Below, one piece after another: positions 31,065 through 54,260 of a stretch of 64,000 nt of DNA. The DNA lies in contig NZ_OBEH01000002.1 of the NCBI RefSeq assembly GCF_900215465.1, forward strand, positions 186,001-250,000, in the 5' to 3' direction. This stretch comes from Flagellimonas pacifica (lineage in GTDB: Bacteria > Bacteroidota > Bacteroidia > Flavobacteriales > Flavobacteriaceae). Position 1 is the first letter of the stretch, and each line of letters opens with the position of its first letter. Under the pieces are notes generated by a model. The model searched no databases. It had not been told where the DNA came from and saw only the letters and a program-made list of their open reading frames with translations. A program made the translations under genes and the position numbers.

Positions 31065-31168
31065 TTTAAACCGCTGTGGAACAGTGGTTTAAAAAGAAGC
31101 GCAAACTCGCAACGTGGGGTACCCGCGTTGCCCTCTTGCTATTCCATTTTCGTCCCGCAAAGCGGGAC
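31065..31168 (+). other. Candidate oriT of element A: three hairpins and a 14-nt core
   Basis: In order there are three parts. Hairpin 1 at 31065-31093 has a 12-bp stem with one wobble and 5-nt loop TGGAA. Hairpin 2 at 31109-31131 has the stem GCAACGTGGG/CCCGCGTTGC with loop GTA. Hairpin 3 at 31152-31168 is GTCCCGC-AAA-GCGGGAC. The 14-nt core GTTGCCCTCTTGCT (31127-31140) includes the end of hairpin 2 and is 11 nt from hairpin 3. The same plan occurs at 54171-54260. Both lie just upstream of a bfmA/btgA gene, where oriT is expected. Confidence 0.65.
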
Positions 31169-31378
31169 CGAAATTTTCACAGCCTACTTTGAAATTAGAT
31201 TGGTTGTCCATGATGAAAAAGGGATTTTTGGACTTTAAGACGGCAGGCCATGAAGATTTACGAAATGTTCAATCTTTTTTTGAAAACCATGGATTTTGTG
31301 CAACGGAAATAATGGGCATAAAAAAGCGGAACATTCAAAATGTCCCGTTTCCAAAATCGGTAATTGAGTTCCGGTCTG

Positions 31379-31828
31379 TCAAATCAAACCATTATCGGCA
31401 AAGCTGTAATAGTCGCCATTGGGCACTAGGATGATGTGGTCGAGCACCTTGATGTCCAACAGCTCGCCCGCTTTCTTTATCTTGTCGGTAAGATCCCTAT
31501 CGGGCTGACTGGGTTCCAACTTCCCCGATGGGTGCGAATGGCAAATGATACAGGCGACGGATGCGGTCTTGAGTGCCACCCCAACGAGCAACCGCACATC
31601 CACCATCGTACCCGTGATGCCCCCTGTGGAGAGTTGATAGATGCCCTTGACCTTGTTGCTGTTGTTGAGCAAAAGAACCTTAAAGGCTTCCTGCAATCCG
31701 ATGGTGTCCTTGTCCCAATGTTCGAAAAGTACTTCCGCAGCATCTCGGGAGCGGCTTATCTTTTGCCAAAAGGAAGCGGCTATCCGCTCTTTGTAGCTTA
31801 CTTTTATTTCGTTAACTTTCGTTGTCAT
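31379..31828 (-). CDS. RadC-like JAB-domain protein
   Basis: This 149-residue protein is of the RadC/JAB family, with the metal-binding motif ICHSHPSGKLEPSQPDRDLT and the segment LLLNNSNKVKGIYQLSTGGITGTMVDVRLL. It lacks the N-terminal helix-hairpin-helix of chromosomal RadC, as is usual for copies on mobile elements. ATG 31828 was chosen since the preceding open frame has no family similarity. Function is unclear; such genes accompany SSB and antirestriction genes in ICEs and may support establishment in a new host. Confidence 0.85.
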   Translation of the reverse strand: MTTKVNEIKVSYKERIAASFWQKISRSRDAAEVLFEHWDKDTIGLQEAFKVLLLNNSNKVKGIYQLSTGGITGTMVDVRLLVGVALKTASVACIICHSHPSGKLEPSQPDRDLTDKIKKAGELLDIKVLDHIILVPNGDYYSFADNGLI

Positions 31829-31916
31829 TGTTTTTAATGCTAATGATGTAATGTGATTTGTTAAAAATGATGATAGAGGGGGTGTTCCGGTCCAACGTAG
31901 CACCCCCTCGACCATG

Positions 31917-32294
31917 CTAGTATTCCGATGGCAATAACAAGGTGCCATTGATAAAGTAGAGGCGGATTTTTTCCAAGGGAAAATCCGTCAAGTGGTAGCC
32001 CTGAGTTTCAAAGACCAGCCCGTTGCCATCGCCGTAGGTGATGGAAGCGGCATAGCCCGTTCTCTCCCTTTCCGTTTCATCGTGCATCCTGAAATCCACG
32101 GTGATGAAACGGCTCTTTCCCATCAGGCTACGGGCAATGACCGAAGTGTCCGTTACCAGCCAAAAGCAGTCCGCCGCCTGTGCCAGATAGTGGATGCCCT
32201 CGGTATAATGGGTACGGATGAGCGGAATATGGTACAGGACTTCCGAGCCGTGGAAATGCTGTAAATTCTGATTAATGGTCATGGCTGTTTCCAT
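31917..32294 (-). CDS. DUF6876-like ICE protein
   Basis: This 125-residue protein from METAMTINQNLQHFHGSEVLYHIPLI. Motifs HYLAQAADCFWLVTDTSVIARSL, FITVDFRMHDETERERTGYAASITYGDGNGLVFETQGYHLTDFPLEKIRLYFINGTLLLPSEY match a small conserved family of Bacteroidota mobile elements, whose function is unknown. ATG 32294 was chosen because it lies eight bases after the upstream gene's stop; the longer open frame overlaps that gene. It is between RadC and SSB genes, suggesting an establishment or antirestriction-type role. Confidence 0.65.
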   Translation of the reverse strand: METAMTINQNLQHFHGSEVLYHIPLIRTHYTEGIHYLAQAADCFWLVTDTSVIARSLMGKSRFITVDFRMHDETERERTGYAASITYGDGNGLVFETQGYHLTDFPLEKIRLYFINGTLLLPSEY

Positions 32295-32301
32295 AGTATT
32301 G

Positions 32302-32505
32302 CTATTGGGTTTTAGGGTCATTGTCCTCGATAAAATCTTCATCCGTGACCCCATTGACCGCATGGTTCAATCGCTTCAGTTCCACCAAAAGGGCCGTGAG
32401 TTGACATTCCGCATAGGTATTTCCCTTTTGGGGTATATTCTTGATAAGGTGCTGCAGTCCACCCATAAGGGTTTCCGCTTGCCGTTTGAATTTTGTTGCA
32501 TTCAT
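32302..32505 (-). CDS. Small conserved-looking ICE protein (67 residues)
   Basis: A short acidic-tailed helical protein, MNATKFKRQAETLMGGLQHLIKNIPQ at the start and NHAVNGVTDEDFIEDNDPKTQ at the end. It fits tightly between ssb and the DUF6876-like gene on the same strand, with 7 bp to the latter, which supports it being real. No family or function is recognised. Confidence 0.5.
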   Translation of the reverse strand: MNATKFKRQAETLMGGLQHLIKNIPQKGNTYAECQLTALLVELKRLNHAVNGVTDEDFIEDNDPKTQ

Positions 32506-32582
32506 GTGTCCGTGCTTTTTGTGGTACTTGGGATAAACAGGGGATGCCCTTTGCAGGACACCCCTCGTCCAAATCCGAACCC

Positions 32583-33062
32583 CTATTTTTTGGTATCGTC
32601 TTTACCGTTTTCCGTTGTGGAATCCTTGTCGTTTGACTTGCCACCATTCTTGGTGGTGTCTGCATCTTTTTGTCCGCTTGTATCGTTGGACTTTGGGCTA
32701 GCTGCTTTCGGTTGGGCATTGCCGTTGGGCTTGCTCCCCAACAAAAGGACTTCATCCGCCACCACTTCCGTTACATAGCGTTGGCTGCCGTCCTTGTCCT
32801 CGTAGGAACGGGAACGGAGTTTCCCGATGACCCCGATTTCGCTCCCCTTGGAAGCATACTTCTCGATGATCTCAGCCGTCTTGCCCCAGGCCACGATGTT
32901 GTGCCAGTCCGTGCTTTCGACTTTCTGCCCTTTGGCGTTTCGGTAATACTCATTGGTGGCCAATGAAAAGCGCACCAACTTCTTTCCACTTTCCAATTCG
33001 GGTACGGTGATCTCGCCCCCGATGTTCCCGATCAACTGTACATGGTTTCTAAAACTGCTCAT
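32583..33062 (-). CDS. ssb: Single-stranded DNA-binding protein
   Basis: This 159-residue SSB has the OB-fold pattern HVQLIGNIGGEITVPELESGKKLVRFSLATNEYYRNAKGQKVESTDWHNIVAWGKTAEII...KGSEIGVIGKLRSRSYEDKDG. A low-complexity Asp/Lys/Ser/Asn-rich tail follows. The canonical acidic tip (DIPF) is absent; the C-terminus reads KDDTKK, so recruitment of host partners may differ. It binds the transferred single strand in the recipient. The upstream region carries GTGGAC inverted repeats. Confidence 0.9.
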   Translation of the reverse strand: MSSFRNHVQLIGNIGGEITVPELESGKKLVRFSLATNEYYRNAKGQKVESTDWHNIVAWGKTAEIIEKYASKGSEIGVIGKLRSRSYEDKDGSQRYVTEVVADEVLLLGSKPNGNAQPKAASPKSNDTSGQKDADTTKNGGKSNDKDSTTENGKDDTKK

Positions 33063-33079
33063 GATGAAATGATTTTAAT

Positions 33080-33101
33080 TGTCCACTTTTTTATGTGGAC
33101 A
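33080..33101. promoter_or_regulatory. TGTCCAC/GTGGACA inverted repeat upstream of ssb
   Basis: Seven-bp perfect arms (33080-33086 and 33095-33101) are separated by 8 bp of T-rich sequence, starting 18 bp before the ssb ATG. A second TGGACC/GGTCCA pair lies at 33126-33154 and another GTGGAC near 33300. This is a candidate operator for ssb and the downstream accessory operon. Confidence 0.4.
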
Positions 33102-33720
33102 GGGTTAATAAATTCCCTTGTTTTGTGGACCTTTTTCTTTGTTTTTTCGGTCCATTTTAAGGGGTGTTTGTTTGATTTCTTCCGTGCGCAGCACAATGGA
33201 TGAAGTGGGTTTTGTCAAGACTTTTGGACAGAAATCAGGAGGACGTCCGCGACGCCGTTTTTACCGAAGGGCTAAAAACAAGGAAGTGGAGACCTTATTT
33301 GTGGACAAAACCCGTCTCCGGTCTTGACAAGTTCCACAATGGTATTAGGAATTCCTCCAAACCCCTTTGCAAGGGAAGCGGACGGGAAGTCAAGCGACCG
33401 TGGCAATACAGGGTTTGGATTGGAATTGGTTATACCATGCCTGTTTTTCGATGCCCCGAAAAACAGCCAACGGCTTCATGCATTAGAAACCCCTTAAAAT
33501 GATTGGGGCAAGGGCCACGGTTTTTAGGAGTTACCGAGCAGGGCCGAAGTAGCCCTTGCCGGGAATGACGTAAAGAAAACCGGGGGTGTGCCCTTCCGAT
33601 TGGAAACTCTTTTAATATGAGATGGTCGCAATGGATATGACAGCGAAATCGCAAAGTAATTTGGCAGTTATAACCAGCGGGATAAAAAGAATCTTTTTTG
33701 GGCCTGGAAAAGTTAAACCG
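33102..33720. other. Long non-coding stretch upstream of ssb
   Basis: About 620 bp without a convincing gene; the open frames present have no coding character. It includes scattered GTGGAC motifs at its left end and probably the ssb-operon promoter on the minus strand. An unrecognised RNA is possible. Confidence 0.35.
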
Positions 33721-34128: not shown

Positions 34129-34238
34129 ACAAATATGTTGGACATTACAATGTAAACATTTTACACAAGTTGCAAGATGTCTAAGTTGATGCCCAATATT
34201 TTGGAAACACTAGTGGTACGGACGCAAATGGGACAGGA

Positions 34239-35060: not shown

Positions 35061-35066
35061 ACTTGA

Positions 35067-35366: not shown

Positions 35367-35370
35367 AAAC

Positions 35371-36491: not shown

Positions 36492-39400
36492 ATGGCAAAT
36501 GGTATCAACAACGGAAAATTCTTTGAGGAACAAGCTAAATTGTTCTTTACTAGGATTTTTGAACGTTTGGGATACGCCATATTGAAGGTGCGTCCGCAGA
36601 AGAGCGGAACCCAGGACGGGTTTGATATCCAATTTATGGTTTCTGAAGGTCTATTGGTTCGCAACATTTATGTGGAGTGCAAAGATTACAAGACCGACCC
36701 GGATTTTGGTCATATCTATGCGAAACTCCACGATTTGGAAACCTCTGGCTATTTTCTGAGCAAGAACGACATCGCAATATTCATAAGCCCAAGGTCCAAT
36801 TTTGGGAACCATAGAAATCCAGAAAAATCAGAGCGCACCTTTAATCGGAATAAGTATCCCTTTAAAATATGTCTCTTTGAAAAGGCCCACGGCATCGATA
36901 GGCTCTTTGCATTGGAACCTGAAATCTATGAAGCCGTATACGGACAACCCTTGTCATTTGAAATTGATGAGGAAAAAGAACTGGATAGGTTCAAAACACT
37001 CCTTCTATATAAGACCAAAGAAGAGGTTATTATTGCTACCGGAAGTAGGAAATCCAGATTTATTACCAATCTGACCAGGGAAAGCAATTATATACAAAGG
37101 GGGGTCACCCTAATCCAAGATCCCGAGACAGACGACAGGCACTTGTTCAACATTCTTAATAAAGAGGCGGCACTATTTGGCATAAAGGATGTTTTGCAAA
37201 ATATATTGAAAGATGCGGTTTGTTCTGGATTGGTATTGTTGGGCAATCCAGGGATGGGAAAGTCCATTGAACTTCAAGAACTGGCCATAGATTTTTGGGA
37301 ACAGCGGCAGCAACACCAGTGGGTCCCATTTTACAGGTCCGTTAAAAATTTTGGAAAACAAGACACCCTTGAGGATTTCTTGCCGCCTGACTGGAAGGAA
37401 ATCCCACAACTTTTGATAATTCTGGACGGTTTGGATGAGATTTCATATGGACAAGAGTTTCGTACCATGATTGAGAATTTTATCCAAAACCATGATTTGC
37501 AAAGTACGGTCAAATTTGTCATAAGCTGCCGGACCAACATCTATGAATCAAGTATTCGTGATATCACCAATTTCCGTTGCTGTACCCTGAACAGTCTGGC
37601 CTTCCAGCCAGCGTTGGATTATCTTTTCATCAAATACCAAATGCCGGCAGAAAAAAGTTATTACAATGAAATTGCCAAGGCGCAAAAGGAATTTTTTGAA
37701 AACCCCTACTATCTCAACCTTTTGGGTGAATATTATAAAGAGGAACAAAAATTACCCAGCAACAAGGCAGAGTTGATGGAGCGTTACGTTGCCAAACGGC
37801 TGCGCGATGATGAACGAACCAAAGGTAGGACACAGGATTTCGATACAGGGCAAGTACTACGTGCCTGCAAGAAGGTAGCTTTTACACTGGAGGCTATGCA
37901 AACCCGAAAGATTTCGGGAGAGCAACTGAATATGTTGTTGCTAGAAGTGAAGACCATGTTCATAACCTGCGGATTCGTAAAGAAGGTCTATAACGAGGAT
38001 TATTGGGAGTTTGAGCACCGTAATCTACAAGAATTTTTTGTGGCCAAGGCCCTTTATAATTTTGAAGCTGATAAAATAATCGAGTTCATTGCCTTGGATG
38101 ATGCCCGACCCAAGACCCATCCATCTTGGCTGAATTCTATTTCCTATTTGCTCAATCTTTTGGACGCCACCTCGGAAAAGATGCAAAAGCTGGTCCAATG
38201 GCTTTTGAACAACGATGCCACCGTCCTCTTCAAGGCTGATCGCTCCAGGATAAGCGATTCGATCCGAAGAGATGTTTTCCAAGGATATTTCAACAAACGT
38301 TGTAAGGAACAGACCCTATGGTTCCGAAAGTACGACCAAGAAACCAAGGAAATCGTAAGGTTTGCGGATTCCACTGTAAACAGGGGATACTTGATGGAGG
38401 AACTTAAGGATGAGCAAAACCATAGACGTACCCGCATTTCGGCCATGTCCCTGCTATCGCAGATGGACACTGCATTGATGGAGGAAGAGTTCAAGGAGGT
38501 ATTGCTGGGTTGTTTACAGGATCCTTTGGAAAAAGTGGATATGCATTTTAAGGCTGAAATTTTGCACACTATCCACGAGCAGGGTTTCTATAACTCCGCG
38601 GATTATCTTGCCAAGTTGGTAGCCTCTGTTTCCTACATCGACCATGAGCGTATCACCAGTGCACTCCTTCAATTGATTGTGGAAACGGATACGGATGATA
38701 ATTTGAACTACCTAAAGTCCATTGCCCCTTTGGTGGGAGGAACAAAACCGCGGAAGCATCAAACAAAGGATAAATACTCTACTGGGGAAAAGCGCTATTT
38801 CATCATGGCCTTATTGAACCTTCTGAAACCCAAAAATCAAGTGTTTGCACTGCAAGTGTTTTTTGAGCACAAGGATACATTACGATGGGAGCGGAAAGAT
38901 TTGACAAATCTGATTGACAATATGGCCCAAAACTACATTACTGAAAATGAGTTGTATGGATATACCGTGACATGGTTGATCAGTGCCTTGGAGAATAGGC
39001 GAATGACTTTTAGAAATGAGGAGTATGTAGTTACATTTTTTAAAAAGACCGGAACGGTGGACAAGGCCTTTAAAGACATCTATGAATCATCACTTGAGTT
39101 GGAAAACAAGCGTTACTTTTTGACCCATTTGGCTACTGATGCTACTTTGCCCATACTGATAAAGGACTTTCAAGACGGAACCATTGAAGAAAATGAACTG
39201 TATGTTTTTAGAAATGTTCTGGGAAGGGTGGATGTAGATCTTGCCCAAAGATTTGAACAACTGGTTTTAGGGGAGACCGATTATCGCTTGAAAGAAGATT
39301 TTATCGATGTGGAAATCAGGAAACAATGGCAGGAATACCATAAAACCAAAGAGCAAAGCTCTTTTGATCTGTTGTTTGATGCAGACAAATTAAAAAAGTT

Positions 39401-43358: not shown

Positions 43359-44615
43359 TCAAGCTACAACCATGGCATTCGCTTCATCCAGCACTTCGTT
43401 AGTAAAGCTTTTCAAATAAATTTCAGTTGTTTTCAAGGATTTATGTCCAAGCCCTTCGCTGATAACATCTGTTGAGATGCCAAGATTTCGGGCTATGGTA
43501 GCCCAGGAATGGCGCATATGATAAGTGGTAAGCGTTGCATTGATTCCGGCATCCTTACCAATGATTTTAAGTTTTTTGTTGACCAAATCCCTATCCTTCA
43601 TATAATACTTGTAGTTTTCGGTAGAACCGTTGTATCCAATGGGGAAAACAAAGTCGTCCTCTTTTTTACCTGCAGTATAGTGAGATAATATTTCAAGAGC
43701 CTCCGGCGTAAGTTGTACGGATAGGGGGTCATCCGTTTTACTACGTCCATAGAAAACTCGATTTTGGATAATATCCCTTATGCGTAACTTCGCGAGATCA
43801 ATCAAGTTCATGCCCCTGCAATTGAACATGAACAACAGGTAATTTAAGGTGTGCCAGATGGTAGTATTTTCAGGATATTTGAGTTTTCGTAAACTATCGA
43901 TGTCCGACTTGGAGAGTGCCCTTTTTTTGGTCCGGGCAGTAGCGGGTATCTTATAAAACTTGAAGGCGTTTTTTGTTGGTACAAAGACCTCCTCAGAAAT
44001 AGCGCTATTGTAAAGGGCTCGAATTGCCCTTAAATAGGAACTGATGGTATTGGTGGCAATGCCCTTGGACCGATATTCAACTTCAAACTCCTTTAAAAAA
44101 GTGACGGTAATGTCATGTAGCGTTAAATCCTTTCCACCATTGAATTTGATTAGTGCTGTTACTCCTTGTTCATACCACTTTGCCGTTCCTGGCTTGTTCA
44201 CCTTATTTTTTCTTTGAATGATTACGTTTGACCACTCCTGCAAGGAGATGTCATTGGTCAATTCCCTCTGGAGGTTCGTGTTGAGTTTTTTGTTCCACAC
44301 TTTTTTAATGTTTTCTACCAGCAGTTTAACTGGAATATCATGTACAGTCGTTCCTAACTCGTGGATGAGTTTTTTTGCAGAATTATATTTGTCATACAAT
44401 TCTAGATTCGCTTTAACACAATCGAATCCCGAATTGTCCGGGTGGTTTTCTTTCAGTTGCATTCTCTTATCATCCCAGCCAGCTTTCGAGGTACGAAATG
44501 GTAAGCGTATACGTTTCCCTTGTTTATTATGCACACTAAGTACAACGGGATATAATCCTGTCTTTTTGTTTTGGGAGTGTTTTCTTGTATCTAGGAGGAG
44601 ACTTATTCTGGCCAT
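43359..44615 (-). CDS. int: Tyrosine recombinase (integrase) of element A
   Basis: This 418-residue Bacteroidota-type integrase has an N-terminal arm-binding domain (ARISLLLDTRKHSQNKKTGLYPVVLSV), a SAM-like core-binding domain (about 110-210) and a catalytic domain. Arg is in FNCRGMNLIDLAKL, the second motif is in TYHMRHSWATIARN, and the C-terminal motif is GLGHKSLKTTEIYLKSF with the nucleophile Tyr. It starts 184 bp from the 43-bp tRNA-Arg repeat (44799-44841), as expected for the enzyme that inserted the ICE. Two TGTGCCAGA repeats between gene and core may be its arm sites. Confidence 0.9.
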   Translation of the reverse strand: MARISLLLDTRKHSQNKKTGLYPVVLSVHNKQGKRIRLPFRTSKAGWDDKRMQLKENHPDNSGFDCVKANLELYDKYNSAKKLIHELGTTVHDIPVKLLVENIKKVWNKKLNTNLQRELTNDISLQEWSNVIIQRKNKVNKPGTAKWYEQGVTALIKFNGGKDLTLHDITVTFLKEFEVEYRSKGIATNTISSYLRAIRALYNSAISEEVFVPTKNAFKFYKIPATARTKKRALSKSDIDSLRKLKYPENTTIWHTLNYLLFMFNCRGMNLIDLAKLRIRDIIQNRVFYGRSKTDDPLSVQLTPEALEILSHYTAGKKEDDFVFPIGYNGSTENYKYYMKDRDLVNKKLKIIGKDAGINATLTTYHMRHSWATIARNLGISTDVISEGLGHKSLKTTEIYLKSFTNEVLDEANAMVVA

Positions 44616-44692: not shown

Positions 44693-44798
44693 AAATGGAT
44701 AAATATAGACGAGTTTAATTCAGTTTATTTAGTTTTTAAAATAGTTAAATAATTGTATTTCAATTAAATATGAATTAATCTAGTTGCACTTAGAATTA

Positions 44799-44841
44799 CT
44801 TCTAAGCAGACGGTCGAAGGTTCGAATCCTTCCGCGATCAC
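44799..44841 (+). repeat. 43-bp att repeat, 3' end of tRNA-Arg(UCU), left copy
   Basis: This is identical over 43 bp to 55660-55702. It matches the last part of a tRNA: anticodon loop CTTCTAA (anticodon TCT), 3' half of the anticodon stem GCAGA, T-arm GAAGG-TTCGAAT-CCTTC, acceptor 3' strand CGCGATC and discriminator A. The sequence before it does not pair with GCAGA, so this is not a full tRNA gene. It marks the junction of element A and element B. Confidence 0.85.
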
Positions 44842-44852
44842 GCATAAACACT

Positions 44853-44887
44853 GGCTTCTTAGCTTTTTAAGCTTTGAAGCCTTTTTT
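44853..44887 (+). terminator. Hairpin with T-run just inside element B
   Basis: The outer stem GGCTTC/GAAGCC (44853-44858 with 44876-44881) and inner stem AGCTT/AAGCT (44861-44865 with 44869-44873) are followed by a T-run. It is a good intrinsic terminator on the plus strand, downstream of the att repeat. It may end transcription entering from the tRNA side and insulate hsdR. Confidence 0.6.
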
Positions 44888-44888
44888 A

Positions 44889-44906
44889 TTTGCAAACTTT
44901 TTGCAA
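44889..44906. repeat. TTTGCAA pair at the left end of element B
   Basis: TTTGCAA at 44889-44895 and 44900-44906, starts 11 bp apart. The same pair with the same spacing and orientation is at 55532-55549 near the right end. These are candidate integrase arm-binding sites. Confidence 0.5.
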
Positions 44907-44963
44907 GCAACCTCTTTTTTTAACATTTCCTTAACAAAATCAAGTGATTTTTAAGCTAAAAAT

Positions 44964-47900
44964 CTAACTCCAATGCTCCTTAGTATAAGTGAGCATTTCT
45001 TTTGCTGTTAAAGCAATTGCGCTAGCGCTTCTTCTTATATAAAACTCGTCTTGTTTGCCTTTTTGGTTTAAAAATACTGGCTCGGGTGCTTTTTTCTTAA
45101 TACAGATTTTTGCCACAGCATTTTCTCCGATATTTTCAATTTCAATATTAACCAAACTATTAAAATGATTTCCTAAGAATTTGGCTAACAAATTATCAAA
45201 GTGTTTTAAAAAGGCATCTTTTTTGTCATCGTCTTTAAACGTTGGGAAATCGGTAGTATTTATTCCAATGATGTTGAAATTATCTTCCACACCTATTAAC
45301 AAAATGCCACCATTTGTATTTAAAAAAGCTGCTATGTTTTTAAATGCGGAATGCTCAATATGTGCCATTGGTTTTTTTTCTCTTAAGCAATAACGCAAGG
45401 ATGATTTAAACTCTATCTCTTTTGTTTCTCCATTGTTTATAATTTCTTGGACAGATTTATCACATAAAGAATCTTGCTTTCTACTCACAAATAGTTGCTC
45501 CTCTTTTAAAATTCTTTCAAAATCATCACAAAGCTGATTTGTAATCCCTTTTGTTTCTTTGATAAAAAACTCTCCTAATTCTTTTCGATTCCGATTAATA
45601 AACTTTCTGAAAATCTTATAGAAATCATCGTAAATTTCTTCTGTACCAAAAGCTGAGCCTTCATCTAAAATTTTAGCGATGACTCTTTTCCCTTTTGGAT
45701 CTTCTTTTACGAAATCAAATAACTTAGAGATTTTATTTTCAAAATCTTCAATTAATTTTTCAATTTCTGCTTCTTCTTGATTACGCTTTTCAATTACAGC
45801 CAATATGTGAAACTTGTATTGCTTACCAGCACCATAAGTTTCAGATTCTTCGTTTACTTTAGATTTCTTTTGAACAGTTATATACTCTATTGGTGCAATG
45901 ATTCCCGTTTTATTATCGTAGTAAACTTCTACGTCATCAAGAATTTCATCTGGCTTGTGTATGGTATTATATATAGTGTTGTACTTTCTCCAAAAAGCTA
46001 GAAAATATTCATAGGTATACTGTTCATCTAAATCTATTACGAATTCAATAAGATTAAGTATTTGGAAATATTTACCTACTTTACGTTTTAGTTTTTTTGC
46101 CTCGTCAGATTGCTTGTGTATATAATTTGTAAAGGCATCTGTAATTTCCTGAACTATAGTTATATCTTTTTCATCTTCACTTTCGGTATTATAATCTATA
46201 AACGTTTCATAATAGGTCTCAAAAAGTATATGTCCTTGCATTTCTGAAAAATGAGATTTTAATACCTTCTCATCCTCCAACGGATTGAAATCACTCACCA
46301 CAACATTGCTAAAATGCTCAAAGGCTTCTTGAATATTCTTTACGTTGATGTTTTTATAAGAGAAATCAACAATTTTACAATCGTTTTTATATTTCGTTTT
46401 TCTATTAACTCTTGATATCGTTTGTATAGCGTTTATTCCTCTAATTTCTTTGTCAAGAAAAAGCGTGTGTAATTTAGGCTCGTCAAAACCAGTTTGTAGT
46501 TTATCGACAACTATTATTAAACCATTTTTTTTAATAGCGAAGCTTTGTAAAACTTTAGCTTCCGTAAGTCCGCCATTTAATGTAGATGAAGCGGGATGGC
46601 TTTGCCCATCACTACTATATACAATGTAAACAGGTGCATCCTTAAAACGTTCATATTTAGATTCTTTTACGATATTCTTATAATACGAATCGACATGTTT
46701 TTTATACTTAATTGCAGAACTTATTGAAGACACCGCTAGCATAGTTTTAGCATACCCTCTAATATTATGGTAAACACTACTCACCAATCTTTCTACTATA
46801 AATTTAGAGATTGCTTCAATACGATTTTCATTTGCATATACCTTTTGTTTACGTATTCTGTACTTTCTTCCATATTCGTCCGTTCCTGTTTCTGTATTAT
46901 CTGGAATGGCCTCATAACCCATATCTCCTTCAAAACCTTCCAAATCGCTATCAGGCAATTCAAAATACATTTTTGATGATACTGGTACAATGCCTTTAAT
47001 TGGATTTAAGATATAACCGTCATCAATAGCATTTCGCATGGTATAGCTATCAAATGGAATCCAAATTTTTTCAGCTTCTGCGTACGTGTTGTATTCACCA
47101 AATCTAGCTAGAGTATGATCGCTTGGTGTTGCGGTGAAACCAATAATTAAGTTCTTCTTTTTGGTGGTTTCATTATTGAAGCTGCTTTGCAATTCATCAA
47201 ATAAACTAACCATTTCTAAATTTTGTGTACCACTATTAGAGCGATGTATTTCGTCTATTAAAAAGACTACGCGCATGTCACTTAACTTGCCTAACGTATC
47301 TTTATCCAACACATCGCGTATAGTGCCAAACTTTTGCAGGTTTACTACAACAACTCTAGTTTTAGATTCTAAAGCTTCTAGGAACGTTTTTTTATTATTG
47401 GCCTCTATGAACATTTTCTTATGAATGTTCATATTATGCATTTTGGTATCTAATTGGTCTCGTAGCTGTACGCGGTCAACCACTAACAATATTTTATCAT
47501 AAACAAAGGCTTTATCCTTGCGTAGGTCTTTTAATTGTAGTGCGGTCCAACCAATAATATTACTTTTACCAAAACCTGCTGCATACTGCAACAGTAGCGA
47601 ATACACATTTTTATTGTTTTGGTATTTGTTGCGTTTATCTACTAATTCTCGAATTTGAAGTTCACCCAACCCTTTATCTGCGAGTTCCTTTTTTAATTTA
47701 TTTAAAAAGTAGTCAGGCTCATTTTCGTGCTCTAAAAACTCGCTGATTTTGCCAACAATTTTATCAGTGCCGAATTTTTGTTTTGGTCTCGGGCTAATGA
47801 GTTTGCCATCATTATGCTTATATTCCTTTTGTTTGCTTCCTTCTTTTTTAATTAATTCGCGCTCAATAAAGTTGTAATAGAGAATTTCTTTCTCTATCAT

Positions 47901-48761
47901 TTCCTTACTGTAATGTGCCCGAAAAATTTCTTCAAATTTTTGTTGGCGCGTAGCGTTTACATTTTTTAATGGATAACTTTTAAAGTTTTTAGAAATGGCT
48001 ACTTGGTATTTATCATAATCATAAACACCGAACGTTTTTATGTCATCAAAATGTTGACTTATATTCCTAATGATATAGGTTTCGTTAACATCAGTTGATG
48101 TGATGTGAATGGCTTTTTCGAATATTTTTAAAAATTCCTTTTTTATGGTTTGTGAGGTATCATTACCATCTGCTAATTCTAGATAAGTGGTTACTGCTTT
48201 ATGATAATCTTTGGCGACTTTATTAACACCATTTTTACGAGCATTTTGACTGTTCCAATTAGATTTTAACTCACTATAGCCTAAAAAGATTCCATTAAGA
48301 AAGAAGGTGATATCTGGACGAAAGGAAAATACAATTTTGCCATTGTGTTTGTATGTATAGGGTAACTCTTGAACAACAGAAAAAATATTTTCTTCGAAGA
48401 ATTTATTTTCACCACTAACAGAACCACTAGGATAAAATAAATGCAGTTTATACCCTTTAAATGTAACAGAGCGGTTATTGTTAATGAATATTGCCATATT
48501 CATTGACGATTTTATCTTCTCGTTAAGAAAATCCATAAACTCCTTCATTAACGCTTTTTCGTTATTGGCAAATTTGGTTCGTAGTAGTTTACGGTAGTTA
48601 TCTTTGTTTAATGATGTTTCGCTTATAAACTCTTTTAAATCTTCTACTACAAAAAATTTAGGCGAAACCGTATTAGCTTTTACTTCTTTGTATCCTAAAC
48701 CATCAGTATTATTGGTAATAAAGTGGATAACATATTTATCTTGTAAATCTAATTCGTTCAT
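44964..48761 (-). CDS. hsdR: Type I restriction HsdR with C-terminal AlbA/Schlafen-like domain
   Basis: This 1265-residue protein is the motor and nuclease subunit of a type I R-M system. The N-terminal nuclease domain has Asp150 in FRPDITFFLNG and Glu164-Lys166 in YSELKSNW. The DEAD-like helicase has Walker A AAGFGKSN and LIDEIHRSNSG (DEIH), with later helicase motifs such as FTATPS and ISRVNRKTKYKN. Residues about 1112-1265 form an additional AlbA_2/Schlafen-type domain (EIEFKSSLRYCL, HSAFKNIAAFLNTNGGILLIGVEDN, EFYIRRSASAIAL), which classical HsdR lacks. It is the last gene of the fic-hsdM-hsdS-hsdR operon. Confidence 0.92.
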   Translation of the reverse strand: MNELDLQDKYVIHFITNNTDGLGYKEVKANTVSPKFFVVEDLKEFISETSLNKDNYRKLLRTKFANNEKALMKEFMDFLNEKIKSSMNMAIFINNNRSVTFKGYKLHLFYPSGSVSGENKFFEENIFSVVQELPYTYKHNGKIVFSFRPDITFFLNGIFLGYSELKSNWNSQNARKNGVNKVAKDYHKAVTTYLELADGNDTSQTIKKEFLKIFEKAIHITSTDVNETYIIRNISQHFDDIKTFGVYDYDKYQVAISKNFKSYPLKNVNATRQQKFEEIFRAHYSKEMIEKEILYYNFIERELIKKEGSKQKEYKHNDGKLISPRPKQKFGTDKIVGKISEFLEHENEPDYFLNKLKKELADKGLGELQIRELVDKRNKYQNNKNVYSLLLQYAAGFGKSNIIGWTALQLKDLRKDKAFVYDKILLVVDRVQLRDQLDTKMHNMNIHKKMFIEANNKKTFLEALESKTRVVVVNLQKFGTIRDVLDKDTLGKLSDMRVVFLIDEIHRSNSGTQNLEMVSLFDELQSSFNNETTKKKNLIIGFTATPSDHTLARFGEYNTYAEAEKIWIPFDSYTMRNAIDDGYILNPIKGIVPVSSKMYFELPDSDLEGFEGDMGYEAIPDNTETGTDEYGRKYRIRKQKVYANENRIEAISKFIVERLVSSVYHNIRGYAKTMLAVSSISSAIKYKKHVDSYYKNIVKESKYERFKDAPVYIVYSSDGQSHPASSTLNGGLTEAKVLQSFAIKKNGLIIVVDKLQTGFDEPKLHTLFLDKEIRGINAIQTISRVNRKTKYKNDCKIVDFSYKNINVKNIQEAFEHFSNVVVSDFNPLEDEKVLKSHFSEMQGHILFETYYETFIDYNTESEDEKDITIVQEITDAFTNYIHKQSDEAKKLKRKVGKYFQILNLIEFVIDLDEQYTYEYFLAFWRKYNTIYNTIHKPDEILDDVEVYYDNKTGIIAPIEYITVQKKSKVNEESETYGAGKQYKFHILAVIEKRNQEEAEIEKLIEDFENKISKLFDFVKEDPKGKRVIAKILDEGSAFGTEEIYDDFYKIFRKFINRNRKELGEFFIKETKGITNQLCDDFERILKEEQLFVSRKQDSLCDKSVQEIINNGETKEIEFKSSLRYCLREKKPMAHIEHSAFKNIAAFLNTNGGILLIGVEDNFNIIGINTTDFPTFKDDDKKDAFLKHFDNLLAKFLGNHFNSLVNIEIENIGENAVAKICIKKKAPEPVFLNQKGKQDEFYIRRSASAIALTAKEMLTYTKEHWS

Positions 48762-48766
48762 AAGTG

Positions 48767-50116
48767 TTAAGCAGTTACTTTAATTTTACCAATAACCACA
48801 TCGTTTATTAGGGTTTTACGAAGCTCTGTAAAAGTGGCTATTTGGGTTTCTATATTTTTAACAATAGCATCTATTTGTTGTGTTTTGACATCGAGATAGT
48901 TGGCTATTTCTTCTTGTTCTTTAATTGAATTAGGAATGCAAATTTCAAAATCATTAATCTTATCCATCTTCAAATTAATTCTAGTAAATCCTTTCCCCCG
49001 AACTAACATTTTCTCTCTGTAAGCTGATGATAACAATAACCAATTGAGATATTTAGGAACAATCTTTTTAGAGGTGATTCTAAAACCTTTACAAAAGCTA
49101 TTCAAATATGTTTCAGAATCTAAATCTTGAATCAGCAGTGCAGACTTGCCGATATCTTCATATCCTTCTGAACTCATTAAGAAGAATAAATCATTTTTTC
49201 TAATCTTATTTTGGGATTCATTTTCCTCAACTATCACTAAGCCCAAAGCATTTTTATCTATATAAGTATTAGATGCTACATTTGTAAAGGGTAAATATGT
49301 TTTACTTTTTCCATTGTTTTCTTGTTCAAAATCTTTCCCACTTTTACCTGATAAACCACTATATAATATTCCAACATCTTTCATTCGTATCGTTTCCCAA
49401 TGCTCTGGAATATTACTAATCCAATCAATATTACTTTGTTTAAATCTCACATTAGGGTTTAAACCTTTGGCTATAGCTTGATTTATTAGCGATTTTCTTA
49501 ATTCTTTATAGACTTCTATTTTTTGTTGTAATAAGCTTACTTTTTCATCTATGGCTTGGGTTTTCTGATCTAGATAATTGACGATTTGGGTTTGCTCTAT
49601 TTTTGAAGAAGGTAAGGGTATTACATAATTATCAATATCGTTCGGAGCAATATGAGGCACCATAGGATCAGTTTTTGATATTGTAATCCAATAGAGAAAA
49701 TTCTTTGATGCAATAGTGTAGAATAAAAAATTTGACAATAAATTACCTCTTGTTCTTAATCTTGTAACTCTTTGTAATAAGAGAATTGGTAAATCTTCAT
49801 GGCGTACTTTACAATAATTTTTACCAACTTTGGAACCATCCATTTGAATTAAAATATCTCCTTCGAATAATAAATACTTTTTGAGATAAGGCTCATACTT
49901 GTTCCAAAATACTGTGTTCTTCCAGTCAAACACTCCTTCCTTTACATTAATACCTCTTGCTAGTTTTATTCCTTTGTCAGAATACTCATTACTCTTGAAA
50001 GGATAACCTGTAAGTGAATTTGTAACAGATTTCAATCTTGTAATCTTCCAGTTTTTAGGAATTTTTTTTAAATAACCTATTTCAGTTTCTTTATACCCTT
50101 TGTATTCACTTATCAT
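48767..50116 (-). CDS. hsdS: Type I specificity subunit HsdS
   Basis: This 449-residue protein has two target-recognition domains separated by conserved helical spacers. IGYLKKIPKNWKITRLKSV opens the first and ISNIPEHWETIRMKDVG the second. The repeated spacer is seen as TQIVNYLDQKTQAIDEKVSLLQQKIEVYKELRKSLI and EEIANYLDVKTQQIDAIVKNIETQIATFTELRKTLI. It determines the bipartite DNA site. The start overlaps the hsdM end by four bases. The two TRDs differ, so the site is likely asymmetric. Confidence 0.92.
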   Translation of the reverse strand: MISEYKGYKETEIGYLKKIPKNWKITRLKSVTNSLTGYPFKSNEYSDKGIKLARGINVKEGVFDWKNTVFWNKYEPYLKKYLLFEGDILIQMDGSKVGKNYCKVRHEDLPILLLQRVTRLRTRGNLLSNFLFYTIASKNFLYWITISKTDPMVPHIAPNDIDNYVIPLPSSKIEQTQIVNYLDQKTQAIDEKVSLLQQKIEVYKELRKSLINQAIAKGLNPNVRFKQSNIDWISNIPEHWETIRMKDVGILYSGLSGKSGKDFEQENNGKSKTYLPFTNVASNTYIDKNALGLVIVEENESQNKIRKNDLFFLMSSEGYEDIGKSALLIQDLDSETYLNSFCKGFRITSKKIVPKYLNWLLLSSAYREKMLVRGKGFTRINLKMDKINDFEICIPNSIKEQEEIANYLDVKTQQIDAIVKNIETQIATFTELRKTLINDVVIGKIKVTA

Positions 50117-52218
50117 AGCTGTAAACTTTTTTCAAGTTTTACCAATTGATTTTCTAAATCGTTTAACTCTGCAACGATAGTTGTTACATCACGGAGTTGC
50201 TCAGGTTTATAAAATATTTTATTAAAGTTAAGCTCTATACCTACAACATTATCAACATAAACAAAAGGTTTACTAATGTACTTTTCCATAAAGTCAGCAA
50301 TACGTTTACCGTTTTCATTTTCGCTAGGCGAAAATGGTATAATCTCGTAATCTTTTTGGTAATCGGGTTCTAATTGGGCGGTAATAACAATTTGTGCTTC
50401 CTTTGTTTTAGTCGCTTTTTTATAGCTACTTTTTATTACTATTTTACCACAACCTAAAGCTGTTTGTTTACCATTAATAGTTTGTATTATAGTTTCGGCG
50501 TCTTTGTCGTAGGTATAACTTTCGCTTTCAGTTGTAACAGTAAGTTTATGTTCTTTGTAGTACAAATTGGCGAGTAAGGGCTTTATATAATTATCATTAT
50601 ATTCTTTTAGTGTGTTGTATTTATCCGAGTTAAATGTTGTAACGACAAAATCTGTTAGCTCAATTGTGTTGTTTTCATCGTCTATTTGCGTGATTTTTAT
50701 GGGTTCTAGTTTGGTAAATTTAGCTTTTACCGTGTCCCCTTGCCTATTTATTTTAGTTGGTAAATGTGCTTCATACGATTTTCCATTTTCATCAAGGTTA
50801 GTTAGAATAATCGCTTGTTTGTTATAGTAAAAATGCCATTTATCGAATACTCTGGTAAATCCGTTGTCCTCAAAATTGGTAAGTGTATCGACTATAATTT
50901 TACGCTGTTCGGGACGCATTTCATTACGCTTTTTACCCTTACTTTTCTTTAACTGAGTGTAATGTGCATCGGCATTTATCATTATAATTTTATCCCTGCG
51001 CTCTTTAGGTTTGTTTTTGTTGAATACCCATAAATAGGTGTAGATACCTGTGTTAAAAAATTCATCTTTAGGCAATTGTATGATGGCTTCTACGTAATCG
51101 TTATCGAAAAAGTACTTTCTAATAGTACTTTCACCACTGCCTGCATCTCCACTAAATAAGGTTGAACCATTATGTACTACAATAGCCAAACCTTTATCAT
51201 CAAGTTGAGATAAAATATGTTGCGTAAATAAAAATTGTCCGTCAGAAACTGAAGGTAAAGCTACAAATCGATCGGTTTCATCAGTTTCAATATCTTTTTT
51301 AAATCCTTTCCAGTCCACACCATATGGTGGATTGGCAACAATAATATTAAACTGTTTATCGCTAAATTTTTGTCCTGTCAAAGAGTTACCATATTCAATA
51401 ATCGAATCTTCCCTAAATCTACTTTCTATTTTGGCGAGTGCGTATAAGGTATCATTCCAGTCCTCACCAAATGTTTTAATTGGTCTGCTGTATCTTTGGT
51501 TGATTTTATCTTCTACACCAAATAGCATATTTCCTCCGCCACATGTTGGGTCATAAATGGTTAAAAACTTGCCATTATCTTTAATTTTCGAAAGGATGAT
51601 TTCAGAAATTAAGGATATTACATCATCGGGCGTATACTGTTCTCCAGCAGTTTCAGCGGAAATATCTGCCCATTTGCGTTTTATGTGTTCTTCAAGCGTT
51701 GTGATTTCTGAATTGTTGAAATCGACTAAATCTATCTCACTCCAAGATTTTACAGTAGAAAAAAGGATTTTCTTTTTCTTTAAAAGCCCACTAATACCAG
51801 AAATGTCAAGAAACTTAACTTCGTCATTCCCTTTGTCCACTCCTAACAAGTACTTAGTTTGTGCATCAAAAGCCTTTAGATAGTTATGATAATCTATTTC
51901 AAAAGTTTTATCATTCTCACAAATGTCAGATAGCTTTTTGTTTTTACGAATAATAAAATCGTTATAGCCTAGTCCGTTTTGTTCAAATTCATCAATAAAA
52001 TCTTCTAAGGCTTCTTTATCTAATTCAGAAACGGAATCCACTCCAAAATCTTTTACTAAGCTGTTGGCTTCTCGTATAAGTCTACTTTCAACCATTAACA
52101 ATGCGAAAAAAGGCATCATGTATTTTGGGAAATCACTCTGTTTTATACCTGCACCAATTAATAAGTCGGCTTTTTGCCAAATTTTTGGAACGTATTGTAA
52201 TATATTTTCGTTGGTCAT
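50113..52218 (-). CDS. hsdM: Type I modification subunit HsdM (N6-adenine methyltransferase)
   Basis: This 701-residue protein has SAM-binding motif I (YDPTCGGGNMLFG), the adenine-methyltransferase motif IV NPPYGVDW and the following GLAIVVHNGSTLFSG (motif VI-VIII region). The N-terminal helical domain resembles HsdM_N. It modifies host DNA at the HsdS-defined site. It starts eight bases from the fic stop, so fic is part of the same transcript, and overlaps hsdS by four bases. Confidence 0.92.
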   Translation of the reverse strand: MTNENILQYVPKIWQKADLLIGAGIKQSDFPKYMMPFFALLMVESRLIREANSLVKDFGVDSVSELDKEALEDFIDEFEQNGLGYNDFIIRKNKKLSDICENDKTFEIDYHNYLKAFDAQTKYLLGVDKGNDEVKFLDISGISGLLKKKKILFSTVKSWSEIDLVDFNNSEITTLEEHIKRKWADISAETAGEQYTPDDVISLISEIILSKIKDNGKFLTIYDPTCGGGNMLFGVEDKINQRYSRPIKTFGEDWNDTLYALAKIESRFREDSIIEYGNSLTGQKFSDKQFNIIVANPPYGVDWKGFKKDIETDETDRFVALPSVSDGQFLFTQHILSQLDDKGLAIVVHNGSTLFSGDAGSGESTIRKYFFDNDYVEAIIQLPKDEFFNTGIYTYLWVFNKNKPKERRDKIIMINADAHYTQLKKSKGKKRNEMRPEQRKIIVDTLTNFEDNGFTRVFDKWHFYYNKQAIILTNLDENGKSYEAHLPTKINRQGDTVKAKFTKLEPIKITQIDDENNTIELTDFVVTTFNSDKYNTLKEYNDNYIKPLLANLYYKEHKLTVTTESESYTYDKDAETIIQTINGKQTALGCGKIVIKSSYKKATKTKEAQIVITAQLEPDYQKDYEIIPFSPSENENGKRIADFMEKYISKPFVYVDNVVGIELNFNKIFYKPEQLRDVTTIVAELNDLENQLVKLEKSLQL

Positions 52219-52225
52219 TCTATTT

Positions 52226-53341
52226 TTAATTCTTTAAAATCTCGAATAATTTCACATTCAAAAACAAGTTTTCTACTCCCACTTTTTGAGATTTTAAAAC
52301 TCCAATTTTTTCTAGTTCTTGTAAATATTCGGCTGCTGTTTGTCTTTTGGCTATATTGTTATCTACTAAAAATTTAACCTTTGCATAGGGCTGTACAAAT
52401 AGTAATTCTATTAATTCTTTGGAATAAACCCTACTTGGCAAATTTGCTTTAGCATATCTTACGGTTTCATCCATCAATTCATTAATGGTATTTATCTTTT
52501 GCAAGGTGTATTTAGCAGTATCCTCAACACCTTTAAGCATAAATAATATCCAAGCTTCCCAATCATTATTCTCGGTAACACTTCTTATTTTTTGATAGTA
52601 CTCATTTTTATTCTCGATTATGTACTTACTTAGGTATAAAATAGGTGTGTCTAATAACTGCTTATCTACCAAGTATAAAATATTTAACACCCTTCCTGTT
52701 CTGCCGTTACCATCAAAAAAAGGATGTATCGCTTCAAATTGATAATGCATTACAGCTAGTTTTACTAAATCGTCAATACCCTTATCATCATGTATAAAGT
52801 TTTCTAAATTGTATAATAACTCTCTTATTAATTGTTCGCCTTCGGGTGGTGTATAAATAACTTCATTTGCGCTCATAATCCTCGTGCCAGGCGTATTTCT
52901 AATACCTGCATTATTTTCTTTAATTGTTTGTACAATTTTAATAATGGTATTTGTAGAAAGCGGACGTTCTTTTAACGAATTAAAGCCATCCCAAAGAGCC
53001 TGACGATACCTAAGTACTTCTTTCGTTTGTACATCCGTTGCGCTAATATTTGAGGAAAATGCTTTATACAAACTATCTTGAGTGGTTACAATATTCTCTA
53101 TTTCTGAACTGTCTTTCGCTTCTTGTAGTGTAATAGCATTTACCAGCATTGACTGATTTGGAATTTCGTCTGCTCTACCTTTAAGTTCAGCCAAAACCTT
53201 ATTTGCGGTTATTGCCTGTTTTAATATAGCTTTTGTTTCTATATCTATTGTTGGCGGTAATACGGGTAAACTGTTATAAGCTTGCTCTTTATTGTACATG
53301 GCTTCGACAAATGAATGTATATATGTCGATGATTTCGACAT
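52226..53341 (-). CDS. fic: Fic-domain protein (class II, N-terminal inhibitory helix)
   Basis: This 371-residue protein has the Fic core motif HPFFDGNGRTGR (His206) and the N-terminal inhibitory motif S-x-x-x-E-N (Ser78-Glu82-Asn83 in KDSSEIENI), which blocks ATP binding in class II Fic enzymes. A C-terminal winged-helix-like domain is suggested by KFLVDNNIAKRQTAAEYLQELEKIGVLK. Fic proteins AMPylate or otherwise modify target proteins. It is the first gene of the hsd operon, seven bases before hsdM. A regulatory or extra defence role beside the R-M enzymes is inferred. Its upstream region carries ATATATGTCGA-like AT-rich repeats. Confidence 0.9.
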   Translation of the reverse strand: MSKSSTYIHSFVEAMYNKEQAYNSLPVLPPTIDIETKAILKQAITANKVLAELKGRADEIPNQSMLVNAITLQEAKDSSEIENIVTTQDSLYKAFSSNISATDVQTKEVLRYRQALWDGFNSLKERPLSTNTIIKIVQTIKENNAGIRNTPGTRIMSANEVIYTPPEGEQLIRELLYNLENFIHDDKGIDDLVKLAVMHYQFEAIHPFFDGNGRTGRVLNILYLVDKQLLDTPILYLSKYIIENKNEYYQKIRSVTENNDWEAWILFMLKGVEDTAKYTLQKINTINELMDETVRYAKANLPSRVYSKELIELLFVQPYAKVKFLVDNNIAKRQTAAEYLQELEKIGVLKSQKVGVENLFLNVKLFEILKN

Positions 53342-53432
53342 AAGCCAAATATATGTCGAAATTTTAAATATACATCGACATTTGTTAAAAAGAAATTACC
53401 TATGAATGTAACTGGTTGGATATCAATAAACG

Positions 53433-53490
53433 TTTTTAAAGTAATGGATTCAGAGGTAGGTGTAGCGTAGAGAATCCGTTACTTTAAAAA
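53433..53490. repeat. Long inverted repeat (19-bp arms) between fic and bfmA
   Basis: Arms at 53433-53451 and 53472-53490 pair over 19 bp with one G-T wobble, around a 20-nt loop. It starts TTTTTAAAGTAA and ends TTACTTTAAAAA. The stem is AT-rich with no clean T-run after it on the minus strand, so it is not a standard terminator. Function unknown: an operator for fic, an attenuator, or a small transposable remnant. Confidence 0.55.
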
Positions 53491-53535
53491 TGAAACAAAC
53501 GAGCCTTAGGCGAGTGCGTTAGAAAAACAAAGAGG

Positions 53536-54075
53536 CTAAATCTTAAAAAACTCAGTCTTAAGATCTTCAAATTCTTCTTTTGAAATATCTAAGTGATAAT
53601 ATCCCTTTCCAAAGGTTTTATCAACATATACAACCTTTCTCAATATATTTTCAAATTTTCTTTTTAAAGCTTTCAATTCTTCTTTGGTGTAGTATATTTC
53701 ATTAGAATATTTACTTCGTAGTTTTTCAGTTTCTAATCTTGATGCTTCTATTTCTTCTTGTGAACGTTCAATATAAACAGGTTCTGGCTTCTCTATTCCC
53801 TCAAATAGTCTCTCTAACATCTCTCTTGTAGGTATGAGCTGCGTTTGCTCCATATTTTTTAATAGAGCTATTATATAATCCAACCGTCTATTTATAGCAA
53901 TCGTAGAAGCAAAAATAGGATGGGTCATAGTATCATAAGGAGATAAACCAGTGTCCTTAAAAAAGGCAATCATATATTCTAATGTTTCAGAATAATTTGG
54001 GCCAGTTTTTATTGAGTATTCCTTAAATTCTTCAAGTGTCTTTCTCCGTAGTCGAATTGTATTAAAATCATCCAT
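53536..54075 (-). CDS. BfmA/BtgA-family mobilization protein of element B
   Basis: This 179-residue protein has an N-terminal ribbon-helix-helix-like segment (NTIRLRRKTLEEFKEYSIKTGPNYSETLEYMIAFFKDTGLSP), a helical middle (RRLDYIIALLKNMEQTQLIPTREMLERLFEG) and the C-terminal part YYHLDISKEEFEDLKTEFFK. It parallels the ICE protein at 30365-30949 in layout. No relaxase gene follows, unlike in the ICE. An oriT-like region lies 130-185 bp upstream of its start. It may bind that oriT and recruit the ICE relaxase. Confidence 0.82.
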   Translation of the reverse strand: MDDFNTIRLRRKTLEEFKEYSIKTGPNYSETLEYMIAFFKDTGLSPYDTMTHPIFASTIAINRRLDYIIALLKNMEQTQLIPTREMLERLFEGIEKPEPVYIERSQEEIEASRLETEKLRSKYSNEIYYTKEELKALKRKFENILRKVVYVDKTFGKGYYHLDISKEEFEDLKTEFFKI

Positions 54076-54170
54076 ATTTTATGTAATTGTTACAATGAAT
54101 CCTTGATTTTAAAGGCTTTATTTTCATTTTTGCGTAAAAGCTTCAAAAACAAGAAATCAAAAATTGAGTT

Positions 54171-54260
54171 TATTTAATTGATTTTCAATTAAATATGTAA
54201 TAAGCAACATCGCGTAGCGTGTTGCCCTCTTGCTTTTCAAAACTCGTTCACAAAGTGAAC
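54171..54260 (+). other. Candidate oriT of element B: three hairpins and the same 14-nt core
   Basis: Hairpin 1 at 54171-54195 has perfect 11-bp arms and loop TTT. Hairpin 2 at 54204-54225 has stems GCAACA/TGTTGC and CGC/GCG, a bulged T and loop GTA. The core GTTGCCCTCTTGCT is at 54221-54234. Hairpin 3 at 54246-54260 is GTTCAC-AAA-GTGAAC, 11 nt after the core. Order, loops, core and spacing match 31065-31168, while the stems differ by compensating changes. Confidence 0.65.

Follow-up and report, generated by a model that had tools for sequence, protein, structure and literature searches.

Integrated elements that lack a relaxase and have a helper-like origin of transfer (oriT) are already known, and in section 3.2 of a 2017 review integrative and mobilizable elements (IMEs) of this kind are named for Firmicutes and Proteobacteria (PMC5704250). 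Relaxase-less elements of the iOriT kind, such as the mobilizable genomic island (MGI) MGIVflInd1 and its kin, have a tyrosine integrase of their own, an oriT related to that of an integrative and conjugative element (ICE), and no relaxase or channel genes (PMC5704250, PMC11389934). MGIVchHai6 and MGIVmi1 also lack a relaxase and encode a helper-related accessory protein, MobI, and their oriT is called unidentified in the same section. The Bacteroidetes IMEs Tn4555, NBU1, NBU2 and Tn4399 are described in that review as small and moved by ICEs, but they encode their own MobP relaxase. Here we analysed a stretch of 64,000 nucleotides from Flagellimonas pacifica (contig NZ_OBEH01000002.1, positions 186,001 to 250,000), referred to below as the window, which holds part of an ICE and, beside it, a smaller island termed element B. 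Each carries a region of three hairpins upstream of a bfmA gene. It is likely that both regions belong to one oriT family, predicted to be read by relaxases of the DUF5712 (MOBB, BtgB-type) family, and that element B, which has no relaxase, would be mobilised in trans by an ICE relaxase.

Like iOriT and MGIVflInd1, element B has its own tyrosine integrase and an ICE-related site without relaxase or channel genes, but it is found in Bacteroidota rather than Proteobacteria or Firmicutes, its predicted helper relaxase is of the MOBB rather than the MOBH type, and it is compact at 10.9 kb. Its site resembles that of the ICE in structure and a short string and not through long stretches of identity. 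Within section 3.2 of the review, MGIVchHai6 and MGIVmi1 are the nearest design, with BfmA standing where MobI stands there, although the proteins, helpers and hosts are unrelated and a site is proposed here. What the present sequences would add is a proposed MOBB oriT, an occurrence that extends from marine Flavobacteriaceae in the direction of gut Bacteroides, and a sizeable collection of relaxase-less loci, many of which have bfmA and an integrase. No paper on this oriT or on DUF5712 was found in literature that lay largely outside subscription journals.

The two regions consist of the following parts, given by window coordinates.

31065..31093, + strand: predicted oriT of the ICE, hairpin 1, AT-ended with a 13-bp stem (sequence and minimum-energy fold of single-stranded DNA)
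31109..31131, + strand: predicted oriT of the ICE, hairpin 2, GCAACGTGGG-GTA-CCCGCGTTGC, the covarying core (sequence, fold, covariation on 59 relatives)
31132..31140, + strand: predicted oriT of the ICE, the 9-mer CCTCTTGCT, predicted nick region (constant in alignment A2, below)
31152..31168, + strand: predicted oriT of the ICE, hairpin 3, GTCCCGC-AAA-GCGGGAC (sequence, fold)
54171..54195, + strand: predicted oriT of element B, hairpin 1 (sequence, fold)
54204..54225, + strand: predicted oriT of element B, hairpin 2, GCAACA-T-CGC-GTA-GCG-TGTTGC (sequence, fold, covariation)
54226..54234, + strand: predicted oriT of element B, CCTCTTGCT, predicted nick region (sequence)
54246..54260, + strand: predicted oriT of element B, hairpin 3, GTTCAC-AAA-GTGAAC (sequence, fold)

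Reading base by base and folding confirmed the description in the initial annotation: the three hairpins follow in the same order at 31065-31168 and 54171-54260, and a shared 14-mer (31127-31140 in the ICE, 54221-54234 in element B) overlaps the arm of hairpin 2 and ends 11 nt before hairpin 3 in both. The stem exchanges that it listed, GGG/CCC for CGC/GCG and GTCCCGC for GTTCAC, are correct, and the regions do lie a short way upstream of bfmA: in the ICE the bfmA start (30949) is 116 bp from hairpin 1 and 178 bp from the 14-mer, and in element B (54075) these distances are 96 and 146 bp. The minimum-energy fold holds all three hairpins in each region, with z scores of -6.56 for the ICE and -5.51 for element B, and none of 200 shuffles was as good in either case. 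Within the 4.44-Mb genome the exact 14-mer occurs twice, both times in these regions, and its reversed control does not occur. When up to three mismatches were allowed, matches in the window were at the chance level (5 against 4.9 expected), so the signal lies in the exact string plus the structure. Rfam gave nothing at gathering scores in the part of the window with the hairpin regions. A 34-nt, 82% copy of element B hairpin 1 (54170-54203) was also seen at 44745-44778, 20 nt left of the left attachment (att) repeat of element B; it may be a common protein-binding site or a chance AT-rich match.

A search of 299 genomes of the same family gave 22 matches to the exact 14-mer, compared with one for the reversed control, and the hairpin was present at 18 of them. 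The remaining four (L006, L007, L011 and L013) showed no hairpin by eye and were taken as chance matches. The 18 sites are spread over 13 genomes; at eight of them genes for BfmA, DUF5712 and the coupling protein follow downstream, in element B bfmA is the only one of the three, and at nine there is neither bfmA nor a relaxase. Looking in reverse, 17 of 18 bfmA genes without an exact 14-mer were found to have the hairpin and an exact CCTCTTGCT 157-317 bp upstream, with arms that include GTAAC/GTTAC, GTAGC/GCTAC and ATAAC/GTTAT, and the eighteenth (L057) had no site in the 469 bp before its contig end. These genomes contain 20 such bfmA genes; two G125 fragments (2678522 and 3133312) were left out of the 18, and sites were found beside both by the later search with model R1. 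The scan upstream of bfmA kept only matches in which 6 or more of the 9 tail letters and 5 or more of the 6 pairs were present, and its pairing is thus not independent evidence. The 14-mer of the initial annotation can be refined: CCTCTTGCT is invariant, and the GTTGC arm common to the two regions is replaced elsewhere by GTTAC, GCTAC, GTTAT or GTTGT.

Alignment A2 was made from 59 distinct sequences of hairpin 2 plus tail, in all of which CCTCTTGCT is unchanged (it was part of the search seed in 49). Paired cells in hairpin 2 made up 96.2%, compared with 85.6% in shuffled alignments, double-change cells numbered 66 against 20.9, and pairs with double changes 6 against 3.2; in 49 rows the search seeds had set part of the 3' arm, and the remaining 10 rows came from the scan that required 5 of 6 outer pairs. 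None of 500 shuffles reached any of these three values, and slid partners paired in 20-48%. No row constrained the pair at columns 23-32 (CG 36, GC 13, UA 4), and the pair at columns 21-33 (AU 34, GC 21, CG 2) was unconstrained in the 49 seeded rows. Hairpin 3 had a stem of at least 7 bp in 57% of 37 relaxase-bearing sites and in 0.5% of shuffles, and hairpin 1 was weakly above shuffles in ICEs (at least 7 bp in 22% vs 4%). On this sequence evidence the hairpin structure is under selection, and the compensating stem changes first claimed from two regions are borne out on 59. A stem that stays paired while its letters vary is in keeping with a relaxase that would read the shape of the hairpin plus the tail.

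A covariance model of hairpin 2 plus tail, R1, was run on the same 299 genomes, which are draft assemblies. Matches were obtained in 107 genomes; the best match was strong in 99, which together gave 255 matches, and the counts of single sites below rest on the best 150 of these. DUF5712 was found in 83 of the 299 genomes at 131 places, some of them fragments. A strong site was present in 79 of these 83 genomes, compared with 20 of the 216 without DUF5712 (Fisher p 1e-47), and in 86 of the 90 genomes with bfmA. Placement at random with respect to bfmA, which the initial annotation had named beforehand as speaking against an oriT, was not what was found, given the 17 of 18 bfmA genes above and the 82 of 150 best sites at which DUF5712 is matched at a distance of 509-838 bp, with side and strand as expected. 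The marks of an oriT are seen both in adjacency to the relaxase operon, at these 82 sites and in the ICE of the window, and in an inverted repeat with conserved pairing beside a conserved, nick-like tail. The F. pacifica genome itself has nine predicted sites, three with DUF5712 alongside. Two predicted oriTs of this genome outside the window, at G000:C5:100358 and 107244, lie on the same strand 6.9 kb apart with no DUF5712 nearby.

Across the phylum, R1 matched 9 of 296 genomes, seven of them in the same family, so that the model in its present form is specific to the family. When named genomes were scanned with a 19-mer, at least 118 stretches were obtained, and nearly all of the 80 titles listed were Flavobacteriaceae. 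At least 5 of 6 outer pairs were kept in 114 of 116, and among 92 stretches with enough flank 57 had a relaxase and 35 did not (15 with bfmA, 20 without); since this set overlaps the 299 genomes, it is a second sample and not an independent one. Viral contigs gave no match for the element B BfmA or the 19-mer, and a plasmid search gave none for the ICE BfmA protein or the ICE oriT DNA.

Among distant plasmids carrying DUF5712, of which 11 out of 120 matching records were looked at, nine carry a similar site in the corresponding position, and in two of the nine it adjoins Bacteroides genes of the btgA type. Tests with simple letter shuffles gave 5/200 for L318 and L327, which are much alike, and 2/200 for one plasmid; L320 and L321 have an identical site. 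PLSDB typed six of the 11 as MOBB and pBUN1 as MOBV, and four were untyped. In the two Bacteroides plasmids, btgA lies upstream of the gene matched by the DUF5712 relaxase of the ICE, as bfmA does in the ICE; one record names that gene btgB, and the other labels it a DUF5712 family protein. A hairpin with one mismatch, followed by CCTCTTGCTATTC, lies 161 bp upstream of btgA, like the sites in the window. These plasmids differ from element B in that a relaxase is present, they come from gut species and the hairpin letters are other ones. Going by their gene names, the two records would be of the pBFTM10 type (cf. PMC10865816). Because hairpin 2 covaries, 82 of 150 sites lie near DUF5712, the two occur in the same genomes and 9 of 11 plasmids have a like site, the hairpin plus CCTCTTGCT is very probably the oriT of MOBB relaxases.

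The 68 best sites without a DUF5712 match at the expected place include L249 (G021:C1:3473164), which was dropped as a relaxase-less case since a divergent bfmA-mobB-coupling-protein operon lies 1.5 kb away on the opposite side and strand. The remaining 67 (66 besides element B) are called relaxase-less in the sense that DUF5712 was not found next to them, PF03432 was not found over 40 kb or as far as the contig reached, and Mob_Pre did not score above its cut-off; the flank was shorter than 1.8 kb on one side in six, and G133:C9 had only 651 nt on the bfmA side. PF03432 gave no match within that distance of any of the 68 sites, and a single Mob_Pre match below threshold (E 8.5e-4) was seen 3.9 kb from G266:C27:259819. 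In a Pfam analysis of two batches of neighbouring open reading frames (133 and 132), none of the 25 families most often seen in either batch was a relaxase, a view that hides rarer families and takes in no search for other relaxase families. Fic-domain proteins were the commonest family in one batch (6 of 133 frames, and 2 of 132 in the other, as raw counts with no control). In 12 of the 67 loci (e.g. L027, L255 and L257) a CCCTTAG(TTTT) stretch recurs within 30 nt downstream of CCTCTTGCT in place of hairpin 3, and is perhaps a second class of oriT flank.

A bfmA gene lies within 1 kb of 31 of the 67 sites, and none was found there for 36. This bears on the very unlikely reading that the structure is not an oriT but a regulatory site of bfmA, an operator or attenuator, which would suit its position upstream of bfmA in the 17 cases above, and accessory proteins of the BfmA kind often regulate themselves. 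The 36 sites have the same hairpin and tail without that gene, the plan of a hairpin with a fixed single-stranded tail is that of known oriTs, and the absence of Rfam matches noted above for this part of the window also counts against it. A related integrase was present in the fetched flank of 43 of the 67 sites, within 8 kb in 42, and none was found there for the other 24. Eight loci including element B share a plan with a minus-strand integrase gene 21-188 nt to the right, six of these having bfmA, and in 18 loci the integrase is on the left. The closeness of the integrase gene end in the eight loci would agree with a recombination site for the integrase, but this scarcely credible reading is opposed by the 24 sites without a related integrase, by att repeats that lie elsewhere in the window (44799 and 55660), and by the distance of about 12 kb that separates the ICE copy from the integrase probably belonging to the ICE.

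The genes and repeats of the window that bear on transfer of element B are as follows.

44842..55702, no strand assigned: element B, a 10.86-kb island with integrase, predicted oriT, bfmA, Fic and type I restriction-modification genes (gene content and repeats)
44799..44841, + strand: left att repeat, 3' part of tRNA-Arg(TCT) (direct repeat D2, 43 nt, 0 mismatches over 30 nt)
55660..55702, + strand: right att repeat of element B (direct repeat)
54292..55587, - strand: tyrosine integrase of element B, 431 aa (PF00589, PF13102, PF17293)
53536..54075, - strand: bfmA of element B, 179 aa, a predicted oriT-binding accessory protein (NF041200, E 4.1e-20)
44964..53341, - strand: cargo of element B, namely HsdR (44964-48761), HsdS (48767-50116), HsdM (50113-52218) and a SoFic-like Fic protein (52226-53341)
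43359..44615, - strand: tyrosine integrase beside the left att repeat, probably of the ICE segment (PF00589)
30365..30949, - strand: bfmA of the ICE, 194 aa (NF041200, E 2.2e-17)
29334..30359, - strand: DUF5712/MobB (MOBB) relaxase of the ICE, 341 aa
27694..29328, - strand: coupling protein of the ICE, VirD4/TraG type (PF10412, PF02534)
14227..20459, + strand: conjugation genes of the ICE, namely TraG ATPase (14227-16656), TraK (18087-18710), TraM (18712-19632) and TraN (19653-20459)

The relaxase gene at 29334-30359 has the HUH relaxase fold expected of MOBB. For the conjugation genes of the ICE, TIGR03783 was above cut-off, and TIGR03781, TIGR03779 and TIGR03780 reached E 2.9e-19 or better, below their cut-offs. 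The ICE segment also contains a 1414-aa NACHT/STAND protein (36492-40736), possibly a defence gene.

Six genes fill element B, and none is a relaxase, coupling or channel gene by Pfam or NCBIfam, in agreement with the absence of a relaxase first claimed for it. PF03432 had no match on the contig of the window, and PF01076 had none in the genome. With its own integrase and att repeats, and an oriT-like site related to that of a helper in sequence and structure only, element B has the makings of a relaxase-less IME. About 86 kb to the left on the contig there is a disrupted 5' half of tRNA-Arg followed by an intact tRNA-Arg, from which we infer that the ICE segment and element B very probably stand in tandem at one tRNA-Arg gene. 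The truncated and intact copies at this tRNA-Arg(TCT) hot spot (G000:C7:144.9-145.1 kb, L186) look as if an element had brought a replacement gene. The tandem arrangement raises the alternative that element B moves only in cis, a composite of the two leaving through the oriT of the ICE; the ICE-side integrase adjoins the left att repeat, and both att copies derive from one tRNA-Arg. We regard this as quite unlikely, since it leaves unexplained the oriT-like site and bfmA that element B has for itself, as well as the other relaxase-less sites, which have no DUF5712 alongside and of which, as counted above, 43 have a related integrase near. Transfer in cis may occur in addition.

The BfmA of element B scored 71.8 bits with NF041200 (cut-off 24) and has only 25-30% identity to that of the neighbouring ICE. 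Its nearest relatives in A4 are L236 (55%), L148 (52%), and L252 and L045 (42% each), of which L236, L252 and L045 are relaxase-less. On a tree of 67 BfmA proteins from loci with a relaxase and 38 from loci without, 9 changes between the two states were needed compared with 31 after shuffling, at least five of them forced by well-supported branches; this was a quick tree with several long branches, and near-copies favour clustering. As relaxase-less BfmAs form groups of their own, their grouping speaks for established hitchers rather than fresh ruins. The opposite view, that the copy in element B is a relic, element B being a former ICE or IME that has decayed and shed its relaxase while its oriT and bfmA are fading, is unlikely but is the most plausible of the alternatives. 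It draws on a bfmA in the same genome (G000:C10:56817-57196, L058) that is interrupted by an in-frame TGA and lies next to an intact predicted oriT that has no relaxase, on BfmA frames shorter than 120 aa beside 5 of the 31 relaxase-less sites that have one, and on the weaker hairpin 3 of relaxase-less copies. It is opposed by the open bfmA of element B with its mostly relaxase-less kin, by the clustering on the tree, and by the return of the integrase-oriT-bfmA plan of element B in five other loci. An exact CCTCTTGCT and 5 or more of the 6 outer pairs are also kept at all 67 relaxase-less sites, but this count has little weight of its own: only the best-scoring sites were sampled, and 5 of 6 is still reached in 85-91% when arms from different loci are combined.

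Several results weigh against a shared oriT used in trans. Further pair types in A2 numbered 11 against 9.6 in shuffles, a value matched by 68 of 500, and a hairpin 3 of at least 6 bp was found in 15-21% of relaxase-less copies, compared with 68% in ICEs. R1 was built partly from the genomes surveyed, and the best-scoring sites favour intact ones. The two plasmids without a site, from Hymenobacter and Fibrella, count on the same side, as does the comparison of the BfmA model with the PDB, in which the best matches had E >1. Nineteen of the 68 sites lie in genomes in which no DUF5712 was found, so that these copies have no visible helper now. Finally, the arms of relaxase-less sites match co-resident ICEs no better than ICEs of other genomes (mean 6.98/8 vs 6.92, p 0.38; 42 sites in 21 genomes, the script finding no exact site in ICE stretches L283 and L293). 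A match of stem arms was accordingly dropped as a sign of partnership with the ICE of the window. The suggestion in the initial annotation that element B may use this particular ICE is not favoured over use of other DUF5712 elements, given the same p value and two further DUF5712 relaxases in the genome. The absence of such a match favours a code common to these elements over one matched pair by pair.

That element B would use a DUF5712 relaxase in trans is still the best reading of these sequences, and it fits the 67 relaxase-less copies. Known oriTs of several relaxase families have a hairpin, about eight unpaired bases and then the nick. In the proposed course of events, the integrase of element B would excise it as a circle, and BfmA, of element B or of the ICE, would bind the site and help to melt or bend the DNA. 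Next, a DUF5712 relaxase present in the cell would bind hairpin 2 on the + strand; analogy with these known oriTs would place the nick on that strand, within CCTCTTGCT or immediately behind it. With the nick there, the coupling protein and mating channel of the ICE would pass the strand with the integrase side leading and bfmA and the restriction genes last, and the integrase would insert element B into a tRNA-Arg gene. Since the pairing of the stem would matter more than its exact letters, the helper could be any DUF5712 element and not just the neighbouring ICE.

The site, as a structure plus a 9-mer, can be searched for as a candidate oriT of a relaxase family that Pfam still labels 'unknown function'. 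The 67 of the 150 best-scoring copies that stand at loci without a DUF5712 relaxase would not be called mobile by a relaxase-based search, and restriction, Fic and other island cargo could be placed in a dependency network of helpers and hitchers. As section 3.2 of PMC5704250 names Firmicutes and Proteobacteria, a large Bacteroidota set would extend this kind of element to a phylum absent there. We give about even chances to the wider view that DUF5712/BtgB relaxases across Bacteroidota, in marine Flavobacteriaceae and gut Bacteroides alike, read one structural oriT code, namely a hairpin with arms free to drift while pairing holds and then CCTCTTGCT, and that a relaxase-less guild, bringing along BfmA as an adaptor that stays within lineages of its own, spreads restriction and Fic cargo. 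If this is true, relaxase-less islands would be nearly as numerous as the ICEs whose code they use.

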